DNA of 64,000 bases, from NCBI RefSeq assembly GCF_004212215.1, contig NZ_QVFV01000001.1, forward strand, positions 1,064,814-1,128,813, given 5' to 3'. This document shows, piece after piece, positions 56,780-62,078 of this stretch; the stretch's first letter is position 1; every line of letters begins with the position of its first letter. Made by a program: the position numbers and the translations under genes. The notes beneath the pieces were generated by a model, which had not been told where the DNA came from, made no database searches, and worked only from the letters and a program-made list of their open reading frames with translations. The stretch comes from Leptolyngbya iicbica LK (GTDB taxonomy: Bacteria; Cyanobacteriota; Cyanobacteriia; Phormidesmidales; Phormidesmidaceae).

Positions 56780-57041
56780 ATGCTATCGATGACAGTAAAT
56801 AAACCACAAGCAAACCAAAACCCACAATGCATGACTGATTACACCGAACTCGTCTACTTAATCACCCACATCAGGGTATTAGACTGACATATTTCCACCT
56901 ATACATCCATATAGGGAAGTTATGTAACATGCGTCAGTCAATCAATAGTTATGCCTCTTAGATCTTGGTGAGGATGCACCCAAAAGTCCGCTAGCTAGGA
57001 GTTAGCATTAGTCAGTAGCGGTTTTGCGGGAGAAGCTAATT

Positions 57042-57512
57042 ATGGCTATTGGATCTGATTCTAGTTGGGACTTAGCAGTTGATAATCGTAGCGGACAACT
57101 GGCTCTTGTCGTTGAGATCAAACGCAAAACCGATGTGTCGCCAGAATGGGCCGCCAAGCTACGTCGAAATATCTTTGCACACGGAACTTTCCCGAAAGCT
57201 CCATATTTTTTGATGGTGTTTCCAGATAAATTTTACCTATGGTCTGATGCTGAGGCCTATCAGGATCAGGGCGAACCTACCTACACTATTAATGCCTCTC
57301 CAATTCTTCAGCCTTACTTTGAGAGAGCAGGAGTAACTGCTGACCAAATCAGTGGAGCTAGTTTAGAGCTTATTGTTATGTCTTGGCTTGGAGAAATAAT
57401 TCATTCAGAACAGTTGCCTGAAAACCTTGATGCTTCTCAGCAATGGTTAATTGAGTCAGGACTTTATGCTGCCTTAGCTGGAGGAAAGCTTGAGCATGGG
57501 TTAGCTGCGTGA
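57042..57512 (+). CDS. Unknown protein with EIK nuclease-like core
   Basis: The 156-residue protein starts SDSSWDLAVDNRSGQLALVV and continues EIKRKTDVSPEWAAKLRRN. Asp10 (or Asp14) with Glu25-Ile-Lys27 fits the D...ExK core of PD-(D/E)XK nucleases, on a short hairpin followed by a helix, then YFLMVFPDKFYLWSDAEAYQ. I recall similar cyanobacterial proteins of unknown function; the nuclease reading is inference. GGGAGAAG lies six bases before ATG 57042. Its stop overlaps the next gene's GTG start in GTGA, so the two are translationally coupled. The DNA is AT-richer than the neighbours. Confidence 0.72.
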   Translation: MAIGSDSSWDLAVDNRSGQLALVVEIKRKTDVSPEWAAKLRRNIFAHGTFPKAPYFLMVFPDKFYLWSDAEAYQDQGEPTYTINASPILQPYFERAGVTADQISGASLELIVMSWLGEIIHSEQLPENLDASQQWLIESGLYAALAGGKLEHGLAA

Positions 57513-58132
57513 ACATTTATGTTGAGACAAACTTCGTTCTAGAACTAACCTTTGAGCAAGAGCAATGTTCAAGTTGTGAACAGATTTTACAACTTTGTGA
57601 AGCAGGAAAAGCAAAGCTCATCCTTCCAGCTTATAGCCTTGCTGAACCTCATGAAAAACTGAGCCGTCAAGCACGAAGCCGTCGAGAACTGCAACAGTCG
57701 TTAGATGCTGAGTTGCGGCAGCTTTTACGAACAGCCCCTTATGCAAGCCGTATCAAGAGTATTCAGGATATTGCTAGCTTAATGATTCAAAGTAATGAGG
57801 AAGAAAGGCATCGTTTTGTTCAATGTCGCGATCGGCTCCTTAAAGTTGGAGAAATTGTTTCGCTCAATGCCAATATATTGAGTGAAGCAGCCTCTTATGA
57901 AACTACTTACGACTTAACACCACAAGATGCCCTTGTATATGCATCAGTTATTACTCATTTACGACAGGATTTACCAGGACAGGCTTGCTTCTTAAATCGA
58001 AACTCTAAAGATTTTGATAGTCCTGACATCATTGATGAACTTAGACAACTCAACTGTAAAATGATTGCACGGTTTGATCGTGGACACGGCTTTATTCAGT
58101 CACAGCTGCCATCTGAGCAGCCAGAGGCATAA
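57509..58132 (+). CDS. PIN domain protein (putative ribonuclease)
   Basis: The 207-residue protein begins MNIYVETNFVLELTFEQEQC, the first strand and acidic residue of a PIN domain, here Glu instead of the usual Asp. The other acidic positions are in LILPAYSLAEPHEKL, TPQDALVYASVITHL and LNRNSKDFDSPDI, so the metal site appears complete. PIN proteins cut RNA, and many are toxins of two-gene modules. The upstream partner is not a recognisable antitoxin but a nuclease-like protein, with a 4-base overlap. GTG 57509 is the start. It may be a new type of paired system or a housekeeping pair. Confidence 0.8.
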   Translation: MNIYVETNFVLELTFEQEQCSSCEQILQLCEAGKAKLILPAYSLAEPHEKLSRQARSRRELQQSLDAELRQLLRTAPYASRIKSIQDIASLMIQSNEEERHRFVQCRDRLLKVGEIVSLNANILSEAASYETTYDLTPQDALVYASVITHLRQDLPGQACFLNRNSKDFDSPDIIDELRQLNCKMIARFDRGHGFIQSQLPSEQPEA

Positions 58133-58303
58133 CCAATCTCTGTACAGGAACGCTACAAGCTACTTAGCTGGGTTATAAAGGTTTATTGCATCCAGTGAGC
58201 TTGGTCGTTAAAGGTTTTGGTTGGCACGCCTTCCACCTGTGACCATTTTTCAAGAATTGCTGGCGATCGCTACCATCAGCGCGTCACTCATCAAGAACTA
58301 GCA

Positions 58304-58525
58304 GCGATCGCCCCACTCATTAACCGTTTGAGCCACATTGGCTCCATGTCGGCACACAAGTATCGGCGACTCATCGACTTTGATGATTCAATACAAAGGT
58401 TATGGAATCAGCGGTGAGTCGATGCAGCCCACAATCAACCGTCCACAACCTAAGCCGAAAGTGCAACCGCGATCGCATCCCCTCCGCAAAAGGCTGCGGT
58501 TTTTAGCAATTGTGGGGGCGATCGC
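58304..58525 (+). repeat. Direct duplication of the deacetylase upstream region, copy 1
   Basis: This ~222-base segment matches 61153-61369 closely, for example in AATACAAAGGTTATGGAATC and the start-codon region. Both ends of the match are GCGATCGC (HIP1) sites: 58304-58311 and 58518-58525. The copies are in the same direction, about 2.85 kb apart. Confidence 0.9.
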
Positions 58526-58538
58526 CGCCAACATTTGA
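58422..58538 (+). pseudogene. Truncated start of a polysaccharide deacetylase gene
   Basis: This frame begins MQPTINRPQPKPKVQPRSHP and continues LRKRLRFLAIVGAIAANI before a stop. It corresponds to the first ~35 residues of the deacetylase at 61272 (signal/anchor region) and then stops at the end of the duplication. It lacks any catalytic part. Confidence 0.85.
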
Positions 58539-58677
58539 TCACCTCTCAGAAACTGACAGCGATCGTCTTCAAGCACTGCGGAGAAAAATACCTACTTTGA
58601 TCGTCGATATGAGCTGAGCCTGTTCTTCAGAACGGACGCCGCGCACATTTTCGACTGACAGGAGGGCTAAAACCGCG

Positions 58678-60075
58678 ATGCCGAAATCGACTGAGGCCAC
58701 ATTGAACGGTTCGCCCGCGATCGCCGATGCCCAGTTGCAACTCGCGATCGCCTATGCCGACCAACGAGATTTGGAATCGGCCAGACGACATGCCCAGCTC
58801 GCCGCCGCACAGGCAACGCCAGACTGGCCCAACCTCGAATCGCTCGGCGTCCTGCTGTTTCAGTTGAGTCGGTTTTCAGCCGCGCGTCGTCTGCTCACCC
58901 AGGCGGAACAAAATAGGCCGTTGGGCAGCGAAGCACTCAAAATGCTGGCAGCGCTGTACCGCCGCTCGGGTGAAACCGCCAAAGCGCGACACTGCATTGC
59001 GGCTTGGGTGCAGCTCGACGCGATCGCCGCCCCCAACCATCCCCATCCCGACCGCCCCAACATTCTGCGTCTGCGCTCGGTAGAAAAAAGCTACTTCGGC
59101 ATCAAAACCAATCGGAAAACGGGCTTGCGGTACTGCTGGCTCAAAGGGGGCCACTTTTCTAGCAAAAATCTGATTGACCGGAGCCGCTGCAACCTCTATG
59201 TCGGCACGGTGTCCGGCCACAACCCCATCGGGCCGGAGGCGCTGCCGGGTGTTGACCTGATCGTCAATGGCGTCAGTTGCGCTGATTTGGACCCGATAGG
59301 GCTGAACCACGTCGAAGCCTGCCTGGCCAACTTCCCAGACGTGCCCGTGATTAACCCACCCAGCCAGGTGCGCCACACCACCCGCGCCGAAAACGCCCGC
59401 CGCCTGGGCGTCCTCCCCCACGTCATCCTGCCGCAGGCCGAGCTGTTCCGGCTCGAAGGGGCAGCAGCGGCGATCGCCACTCAAATAGAAGCAACCGGAC
59501 TGAGCTACCCGATGATCGTGCGCCATCGCGGGACGCAGACGGGCAAAACGGTGGAAAAGGTTGACCACCGTCCAGCCCTGGTCGAGTGGCTAGCGGCCCA
59601 ACCCCCAGGCACCGAGGTCTACGCCACCGCCTTTATCGATTGCCGCTGGCCAGACGGCTACTACCATAAGACCCGCGTGTTCTTCATTGACGGTGAGTTG
59701 TTTCCCGTTGCCAGCTTAGCCAGCGACACCTGGCAAATTCATTCGGGCGATCGCTATCGCATCATGTCGTCCACGCCCTCCACTCAGGCAGACGAGCAAC
59801 GGTTCCTGAACGATCCCGCCGCGTACTTAGGCCCCAAAGCCTTCGATGCGCTCTACGCCATCTGCGACACCATTGGGCTGGATTTTTTCGGCATTGACTT
59901 CACCCTCGACGCTGAGGGCAACGTCATCGTGTTTGAGGCCAACGCCGCCATGCGCCACAACTTCGACCACGCGGAAAACTTCCCCTACACCCGCCCCCAT
60001 TTAGAAAACGTCTCGGCAGCGTTTGCAGCCATGCTCGACCGGCGGCTCACCGCGAAAATGTCGCCTATCCCATAG
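58678..60075 (+). CDS. TPR/ATP-grasp fusion protein
   Basis: The 465-residue protein has an N-terminal tetratricopeptide-like helical region (about 15-120; YADQRDLESARRHAQLAAAQ, ALYRRSGETAKARHCIAAW) and a C-terminal ATP-grasp ligase fold (about 210-455). The latter shows YPMIVRHRGTQTGKTVEKVD, VFFIDGELFPVASLASDTWQ and the metal-binding GLDFFGIDFTLDAEGNVIVF followed by EANAAMRHN. ATP-grasp enzymes join a carboxylate to an amine or thiol; the substrate here is unknown. The next gene is a TauD-like dioxygenase, so the two may modify one small molecule or peptide. GGAGGG lies 13 bases before ATG 58678. Confidence 0.85.
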   Translation: MPKSTEATLNGSPAIADAQLQLAIAYADQRDLESARRHAQLAAAQATPDWPNLESLGVLLFQLSRFSAARRLLTQAEQNRPLGSEALKMLAALYRRSGETAKARHCIAAWVQLDAIAAPNHPHPDRPNILRLRSVEKSYFGIKTNRKTGLRYCWLKGGHFSSKNLIDRSRCNLYVGTVSGHNPIGPEALPGVDLIVNGVSCADLDPIGLNHVEACLANFPDVPVINPPSQVRHTTRAENARRLGVLPHVILPQAELFRLEGAAAAIATQIEATGLSYPMIVRHRGTQTGKTVEKVDHRPALVEWLAAQPPGTEVYATAFIDCRWPDGYYHKTRVFFIDGELFPVASLASDTWQIHSGDRYRIMSSTPSTQADEQRFLNDPAAYLGPKAFDALYAICDTIGLDFFGIDFTLDAEGNVIVFEANAAMRHNFDHAENFPYTRPHLENVSAAFAAMLDRRLTAKMSPIP

Positions 60076-60178
60076 CGTCTATGCGCCTGCCCCAGAGAGG
60101 CGATCGCGCCCCATCACCATCACGTCGGGCCACATCATGGCCACTCTCCCAAAGTTTTGACGTCACTATGCTGAGGAA

Positions 60179-60275
60179 TGGGAATTTATTTTCGTGTGGA
60201 CAGCCGTCTCGGCTGCCCAAGCTCAGGCAAGATATCTGCCCAGCAAAATTGGACTTTATCCAACCCTGTTTTCTG
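60179..60275. repeat. Dispersed ~97-bp repeat, copy B
   Basis: This segment in the 221-base gap between the ATP-grasp and dioxygenase genes aligns with 32616-32712. It contains the hairpin CAGCCGTCTCGGCTG and lies only about 20 bases before the dioxygenase start, so it may influence expression. Confidence 0.75.
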
Positions 60276-60296
60276 AATCCATGCAACCCTAAATCG

Positions 60297-61091
60297 ATGA
60301 CCCGATTACACCTGGCTCAATTTGTTGGACCAACAGGCCAACTCGCCACCGAGGCGACCCGCAAACTTGCAGCTGAACTGCTCACCGCGCTCAGGACTCC
60401 GCCGCATTGGCTAGTGTTGGTGACAGACCAGCAGCCCATTGATCTCGATGGGGTCATCAACCTGTTGACGGCAATGGGGCAGCCGCAGGCGATCGCTGAC
60501 AGGGACTTGCCGCGCATTTCGACCACCAAGATCCAGGTGGATACGCAACAGGCAGCGCGTCCTGGCAAGGTGACCCGCTATAGCCGCACCCCCGATGCCC
60601 TGCCACTGCATACCGATTGCAGCAACAAGACCGTCCCCCCCAACCTGGTGGCATTTGCGATGGCACGCCCCGATCCCCAGGGCGGCGGCGAGAGCGTGAT
60701 GTTGTCGGCGGCGGATTTGGTGCACGACCTGCCCGCAGACCTGGTCAGTCACTTGCGTCAGCCGATCTTTCCATTTACCGCCAAAAAGCGGTACCCAATT
60801 CTGCAGGGTGAGGGTGACGAGGTGCAGATTCGCTATTACCGACAACAGATCAACTCGGCGCTGAGCCAGCAGTGTACGTTGTCGGACGCTGCCCAGGCCG
60901 CGATCGATGAGTTGGAACGCTACTTGGCACTATCCCAGCGATCGGTGCGCTTCGCCATGCAGGCAGGCGAGGTTGTGATCATGGATAATCGGCGCGTCTT
61001 GCACGGTCGCAGTGCCATGGCCGCCAACAGCCCCCGTCTGATGCATCGGTTCCGGCTATCCGTCCCAGCCCTGTCCACAGTTGAAGCATAA
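60297..61091 (+). CDS. TauD/TfdA-like Fe(II)/2-oxoglutarate dioxygenase
   Basis: The 264-residue protein has the iron-binding facial triad of the TauD group: His105 and Asp107 in LPLHTDCSN and His236 in NRRVLHGRSAM, with the 2-oxoglutarate-binding arginine in LMHRFRL. GGGESVMLSAADLVHDLP also fits. Such enzymes hydroxylate or desaturate small molecules or carrier-bound amino acids. ATG 60297 begins the protein at MTRLHLAQFV; the frame is open to 60081 through the repeat, without sense. It follows the ATP-grasp gene by 221 bases and precedes the second copy of the duplication. Confidence 0.87.
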   Translation: MTRLHLAQFVGPTGQLATEATRKLAAELLTALRTPPHWLVLVTDQQPIDLDGVINLLTAMGQPQAIADRDLPRISTTKIQVDTQQAARPGKVTRYSRTPDALPLHTDCSNKTVPPNLVAFAMARPDPQGGGESVMLSAADLVHDLPADLVSHLRQPIFPFTAKKRYPILQGEGDEVQIRYYRQQINSALSQQCTLSDAAQAAIDELERYLALSQRSVRFAMQAGEVVIMDNRRVLHGRSAMAANSPRLMHRFRLSVPALSTVEA

Positions 61092-61152
61092 GTCACGAAC
61101 CGATTAGCCGCTTCGATAACACAGTGCTAGAAAAGTACCGATCCAGCCGAGA

Positions 61153-61369
61153 GCGATCGCCCCACTCATTAACCGTTTAAGCCACATTCACTCCACATAG
61201 GCTCACAAGTTATCGGCTGCTAATCAACTTTGATGATTCAATACAAAGGTTATGGAATCTGCGGTGAGTCGATGCAGCCTACAATTAACCGTCCCAAACC
61301 GATCGCACCGCCGCGATCTCGCCCCCTCCGCAAAGGGCTGCGGTTTTTGGCGATTGTGGGGGCGATCGC
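61153..61369 (+). repeat. Direct duplication of the deacetylase upstream region, copy 2
   Basis: This is the functional counterpart of 58304-58525: about 120 bases upstream of the deacetylase start plus its first ~32 codons. The HIP1 sites at its ends are 61153-61160 and 61362-61369. Upstream of the first site the two loci are unrelated. Confidence 0.9.
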
Positions 61370-62078
61370 GCTCTCGATTTTCCTGTTTGATCGGGCTTTG
61401 TGGCCCAACCGCTACCTGCTCGCGCCCTGGGTGTTTGGCGACGCCATTTATCAGGTACAAACCGCTGAAAAAGTGGTGGCACTCACCTTTGACGATGGCC
61501 CCGACCCACGTTACACCGAGCAAATTGGGCAAATCCTCGCCGATGCGGGAGCCCCCAGCACCTTCTTTGTCATGGGGCGACATGTGCAGCAGCATCCCGA
61601 ACTTGTGCAGACCTTGATGGCCCAGGGACACGAACTAGGGAACCATACCTGGAGCCATCCCAGCCTCAAAACCAAATCGCCTGCCACGATTCGCGATGAA
61701 CTGGAATCGACCGATCAACTACTGCGCGACCTGGGGTATACCCAGCCGATTCCCTTCCGCTCGCCCTATGGTCACAGTTGGTTCACGCTGCCCCACGTGC
61801 TCAAGCAACGCGACCAGGCCAACATTTTGTGGACGGTGCAGATGAACGACTGGAAACCCGAAGAACCGGACGTAATGATGGCGCTGCTGGCTCCCAAGTT
61901 TGGCAACGGGGCGATCGTGCTGATGCATGACGGCGATGGCGAGTCCGAAGGGGCCGATCGCAGCAACACCGTCACCCTGGTGCAAATGATTTTGGACAAA
62001 TACCTTGCCGAAGGCTATCGCTTTGTCACCGTGTCTGAACTCCTGACCCAGGGAAAACCGATTCGCCGCTGGTCCTAA
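61272..62078 (+). CDS. Polysaccharide deacetylase (NodB homology)
   Basis: The 268-residue protein has a basic, proline-rich start, one membrane anchor (about 30-45) and a NodB domain. Motif 1 is VVALTFDDGPDPRYTEQ with the catalytic and metal aspartates, motif 2 is HELGNHTWSHPSL with the two metal histidines, and motif 3 is PIPFRSPYG. IVLMHDGDGES is the late histidine motif. It should remove acetyl groups from peptidoglycan or an exported glycan outside the membrane. ATG 61272 is chosen; 14 residues in frame upstream also exist and are shared with the duplicated copy at 58422. Confidence 0.93.
   Translation: MQPTINRPKPIAPPRSRPLRKGLRFLAIVGAIALSIFLFDRALWPNRYLLAPWVFGDAIYQVQTAEKVVALTFDDGPDPRYTEQIGQILADAGAPSTFFVMGRHVQQHPELVQTLMAQGHELGNHTWSHPSLKTKSPATIRDELESTDQLLRDLGYTQPIPFRSPYGHSWFTLPHVLKQRDQANILWTVQMNDWKPEEPDVMMALLAPKFGNGAIVLMHDGDGESEGADRSNTVTLVQMILDKYLAEGYRFVTVSELLTQGKPIRRWS

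Follow-up and report, generated by a model that had tools for sequence, protein, structure and literature searches.

How the 5´ end of a core gene came to lie on both sides of two accessory genes, with each copy bounded by the palindrome HIP1 (GCGATCGC), is the question raised by a locus of Leptolyngbya iicbica LK. The window analysed here is a stretch of 64,000 nt from this strain (GCF_004212215.1, NZ_QVFV01000001.1, positions 1,064,814-1,128,813, forward strand), in which the locus has pbp on one side and deacetylase-tkt on the other. An earlier reading of the same letters, called here the original prediction, had proposed a direct duplication of about 220 bases, and this duplication is real. 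In a local alignment, copy A (58303-58525) matches copy B (61152-61369) with 84% identity over 224 columns with gaps counted, or 87.5% when ungapped columns alone are considered. The block measures 217-222 bp, one copy stands on either side of an ATP-grasp/TauD gene pair, and a whole-genome search for a third copy in the 5.7-Mb assembly detected A and B only.

The block itself is composite. The upstream copy A (58304-58525, plus strand) begins with about 60 bp to which no origin was assigned and continues into the promoter-proximal region of the deacetylase; the downstream copy B (61153-61369, plus strand) forms the 5´ end of the intact deacetylase gene. The original prediction took the whole segment for deacetylase leader plus first codons. 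This holds for about 155 bp, from about 61215 to the right HIP1, which form a leader conserved in relatives, but not for the first 60 bp or so, which are absent from the relatives' leaders and, among the relatives compared, occur only in copies A and B and in their two counterparts in Halomicronema sp. CCY15110 (G004). The predicted truncated deacetylase start was found as well: the frame of copy A opens with ATG at 58422, encodes MQPTINRPQPKPKVQPRSHPLRKRLRFLAIVGAIAANI and stops after 38 codons, at 58538, and the equivalent frame of CCY15110, as read from its sequence, stops after 8 codons. Since a consensus search found no sigma-70-like promoter within the block, it is position and conservation that point to promoter content in it. 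A terminator-like hairpin with TTTTT is present within the coding part of both copies (58484-58504 and 61328-61348).

Between the copies lie two accessory genes, as had been claimed, and no transposase was found among them. The first (58678-60075, plus strand) encodes a protein of 465 aa with TPR matches, which we call ATP-grasp-like on the basis of weak RimK/R2K-type ATP-grasp profile matches and one distant match to an annotated RimK-family ligase (27%, E 3e-16); its structure prediction, made from a two-sequence alignment, was unusable (mean pLDDT 40). The second (60300-61091, plus strand) encodes a TauD/TfdA-family dioxygenase of 263 aa (PF02668, E 4e-22). Continuing from copy B, the intact polysaccharide (NodB-type) deacetylase gene occupies 61273-62078 on the plus strand, with ATG 61273 chosen as its start in view of interruptions of the upstream frame in the relatives G001 and G002. 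On the other side of copy A, a two-gene accessory unit (57024-58132, plus strand) encodes a 162-aa protein without assignment and a PIN_12-domain protein; CCY15110 has an MtlR-like gene in its place.

HIP1 is present at all four edges: at 58304-58311 and 58518-58525 in copy A and at 61153-61160 and 61362-61369 in copy B. The last of these sites is ancestral, as CCY15110, G001, G002 and G005 have HIP1 at the same place in their intact deacetylase genes. A HIP1 rearrangement is recognized by junctions that fall within GCGATCGC at either side and at which homology stops, and this is what we observed. Outside the edges no homology above that of shuffled sequences was detected (score on the left 12, with a mean of 15 for the shuffles; on the right, 16 for both). 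This comparison confirms that the match begins and ends at GCGATCGC in both copies, and it revealed none of the continuation past HIP1 that had been named as evidence against a HIP1 event.

CCY15110 carries extra copies and extra cargo. There, an attI-like stretch and then the MtlR-like gene precede copy 1, and ATP-grasp and TauD separate this copy from copy 2. Next come a DUF2281/PIN pair, a remnant of 40 bp from the deacetylase 5´ end, a gene for a PemK/MazF-like toxin and a third copy, with the deacetylase and tkt last. The toxin gene has an upstream partner on the opposite strand, the two being genes of toxin-antitoxin type. The third copy is devoid of the first 60 bp or so and is fused to the deacetylase, and the sequence 5´ of it differs from that 5´ of the full copies. 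Copies 1 and 2 and the remnant all end inside one octamer, which is the HIP1 of the intact gene, and are followed by three different sequences, although these right junctions may not be independent and the number of separate HIP1 events may be smaller. To the left of copy A, the window and CCY15110 carry different genes with almost nothing alignable, so the block common to both species begins where copy A does, at its left HIP1. About 650 bp 3´ of tkt, CCY15110 possesses a 43-bp near-perfect inverted repeat (L033:9131-9173).

Comparison of divergence between the two species suggests that the pair has a history of its own. Synonymous divergence (dS by Nei-Gojobori, window against CCY15110, values near 0.9 being approximate) is 0.25 for the ATP-grasp-like gene and 0.23 for TauD, roughly threefold lower than the 0.65 of pbp, 0.74 of the deacetylase and 0.88 of tkt. 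As these values are well under those of its neighbours, the pair was probably exchanged between the species after their split. Copy B of the window is 94% identical to copy 2 of CCY15110, more than copies A and B are to each other, and the leader copies therefore probably moved together with the pair. A 6-bp insert of copy 2 is absent from copy B and from the third copy of CCY15110.

Other relatives represent the single state. G001, G002, G003, G005 and G012 have a single deacetylase leader, or one diverged beyond detection (G001-G005 and G012 are drafts or MAGs, with contig ends within the region in some), in agreement with the expectation that strains without the pair at this site carry one copy. 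Genomes with the pair but no duplication, which had been named as the case that would count against the prediction, were encountered in a mild form only: G002 and G005 possess the pair without the leader duplication, but at other loci. In G002 its place is downstream of lspA-pbp; a duplicated TauD tail adjoins it on the left, and an intI remnant and attI-like sequence on the right. In G005 it is distant from pbp as well as from the deacetylase. G001 has a TauD tail left near pbp. Truncated tails of TauD close to pbp, seen in two MAGs (L064:7954-8121, L066:657-808), suggest that the pair was repeatedly duplicated in part or lost.

The region upstream of the deacetylase has changed too. G005 and G012 have a divergent P-loop NTPase gene there, G001 has the start of this gene and G002 a related ATPase; neither the window genome nor CCY15110 has a closely similar copy of the NTPase (best matches 51% and 48%). 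The deacetylase has thus lost its ancestral neighbour here, the divergent NTPase gene, and pbp and deacetylase-tkt became neighbours. Direct repeats of 100-400 bp, some of which have attC-like features, are interspersed with accessory genes (APH, RidA-like, DUF6228, GNAT-like) in two relatives (L064:7024-8460, L065:6995-13730). In Leptolyngbya sp. SIOISBB the deacetylase gene consists of two overlapping pieces with stops (L038:7570-8415) and may be frameshifted or affected by an assembly error. Matches to the 3´ motif in G060 and on contig 244 of G004 are surrounded by unrelated sequence and were read as chance.

Integrons are known from cyanobacteria (PMC2426708; PMC8352920), and the locus looks integron-derived. 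Directly 3´ of pbp, a plus-strand segment (56787-56955) resembles sequences next to intI in CCY15110, SIOISBB and MAG G002, and is therefore read as a putative orphan attI, an assignment made by similarity only. Further attI-like sequences occur in the window genome on contig 1 (45934-46138) and on contigs 2 and 3. No integron integrase was detected in this genome (best match 34 bits, cut-off 265); CCY15110 has three full-length intI matches. The duplicated block, on the other hand, did not behave as an integron site in the tests made and was rejected as such: a crude attC scan gave candidates in G005 but no attC-like match at the cassette boundaries of this locus, Rfam returned no match for the block, and folding revealed nothing unusual at 58120-58303.

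With modest confidence, we favour a scenario in which the segment was duplicated by ectopic recombination at HIP1, within a hotspot derived from an integron, and the cassette was exchanged afterwards by homologous recombination. The setting would be a variable gene-exchange locus between pbp and deacetylase-tkt, and the event would date to an ancestor common to CCY15110 and the window strain, or would have happened in a donor. Microhomology at HIP1 would have allowed ectopic recombination, by unequal crossing-over or integration of a circle, to join the pair to the deacetylase leader and double the latter. The gene-proximal copy would keep the deacetylase whole; the upstream copy would be a relic from which the pair may obtain a promoter. 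Repeats of this length would later allow homologous recombination between them to exchange, delete or add cassettes, and such reshuffling is suggested by the extra copies and cargo in CCY15110 and by the low divergence of the pair. Insertion or duplication by recombination at HIP1, as originally predicted, thus finds support in the HIP1 ends, the single leaders of relatives and the truncations in CCY15110; the role of HIP1 as the driver is what we infer. A single insertion, on the other hand, is too small a picture, given the lost NTPase, the orphan attI-like sequence by pbp and the apparent exchange of the pair between species. Some indication of HIP1-linked site-specific and illegitimate recombination exists in two Synechococcus strains, whereas for a link of HIP1 to homologous recombination there is no evidence (PMC4390886).

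It is possible, if rather unlikely, that the duplication arose by a Campbell-type single crossover instead, a circle with the pair and one leader having been integrated by RecA into the resident leader, so that the edge HIP1 marks an earlier joining of the circle's DNA. Such integration yields exactly a direct repeat around the cargo, and given a first HIP1 junction it accounts equally well for the duplication. The behaviour of pair and repeats as one exchanged unit, the apparently mosaic nature of copy B and the unlike 5´ sequence of the third CCY15110 copy are all in its favour. However, this explanation still requires the prior HIP1 junction, and neither a leader-carrying circle nor a free donor was found in the plasmid collection or in the genomes of the family. 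No plasmid record contains a close relative of the pair; plasmid carriers are distant only, with less than 40% identity for the ATP-grasp-like protein and 26-31% for TauD among the eight matches listed.

HIP1 might also have nothing to do with the event: an ordinary unequal duplication, followed by decay in a rearranging locus, could have acquired HIP1 edges by chance. The octamer is frequent in this genome (1.8 starts per kb, about one per 565 bp) and denser in this region, and partial repeats whose edges lack HIP1 are found on the flanks of the pair in G002 and of accessory genes in G005. Nor are HIP1 edges a general trait of local repeats, a notion that we rejected. Among 48 local direct-repeat pairs surveyed in 1.25 Mb of contig 1, the A/B pair alone has HIP1 at both ends, and the octamer occupies only 1 of 94 ends of the others (interior rate 0.4%). 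Recurrent HIP1 junctions across the genome, which would support a HIP1 rearrangement without defining it, are thus not seen, and with HIP1 edges so rare no general HIP1 machinery is visible. One other local repeat, outside the window, has a shared HIP1 at one end (contig 1, 261299-261400 and 262186-262284). Chance would nevertheless have to place HIP1 exactly at both edges, with a probability of about 3e-6, 1.5e-4 with 3 bp of leeway or at most 3e-4 at local density, figures to be read with a slight bias of alignment-based edge placement towards so frequent a sequence. It would also have to let further truncated copies end in the same octamer in a second species. We consider this coincidence improbable.

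Least plausible is a mobile block, be it an attC or a MITE-like element whose terminal inverted repeats measure 11 bp (GCGATCGCCCC/GGGGCGATCGC). Its ends pair, it folds better than shuffles (z -2.3 and -3.3), CCCC adjoins only 1.9% of HIP1 sites and integron remnants are close by, but no copy of the block exists away from this locus, whether in its own genome or in 62 further genomes of the family, its right end is ordinary conserved coding sequence, and attC-like matches at the cassette boundaries, Rfam matches and a transposase between the copies are all missing. Eight of the 11 terminal bp are HIP1, which is itself palindromic, and inverted ends and folding were therefore given little weight. 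A dispersed repeat was rejected for lack of copies at unrelated loci in these genomes.

Under the favoured scenario of HIP1 recombination in a gene-exchange locus, a bolder generalization can be imagined, which we regard as doubtful. HIP1-bounded 5´ copies of a core gene might form a reusable, integrase-free cassette slot, each capture re-creating the promoter region and first codons and leaving a truncated copy that ends at the same HIP1. If so, accessory genes would accumulate ahead of an always intact core gene. In any case, the locus shows a core gene retaining its 5´ end while foreign genes are placed ahead of it. HIP1 is among the most over-represented palindromes of cyanobacterial genomes, and there is no settled view of its role. 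If one HIP1 octamer has served naturally and repeatedly as a junction in two species, this would be comparative evidence of a rare kind for a part of HIP1 in gene acquisition.

Several known systems resemble this locus. The smtA/smtB deletion in PCC 6301 is reportedly a HIP1-associated rearrangement. In Synechococcus, recombination of a plasmid kind (PCC 7002) and of an illegitimate kind (PCC 7942) has likewise been associated with HIP1 (as cited in PMC4390886). The locus shares with such cyanobacterial rearrangements the junction within GCGATCGC, but is a duplication around accessory genes in two species rather than a deletion or plasmid event, and is known from sequence alone. With cyanobacterial chromosomal integrons and orphan cassette arrays it has in common the attI-like sequence, exchangeable genes (PIN, MazF-like, APH and GNAT types) and intI in relatives; it differs in having neither integrase nor attC-like match, and its flanking repeats are deacetylase 5´ ends. 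As in the repeats left by Campbell integration, cargo lies between two copies of a host gene 5´ end and the downstream copy keeps the gene whole; here, however, the copies have diverged, no vector or donor was found and the edges lie at HIP1. Taken together, the locus fits recombination at this palindrome, as a putative mechanism, in a gene-exchange hotspot.
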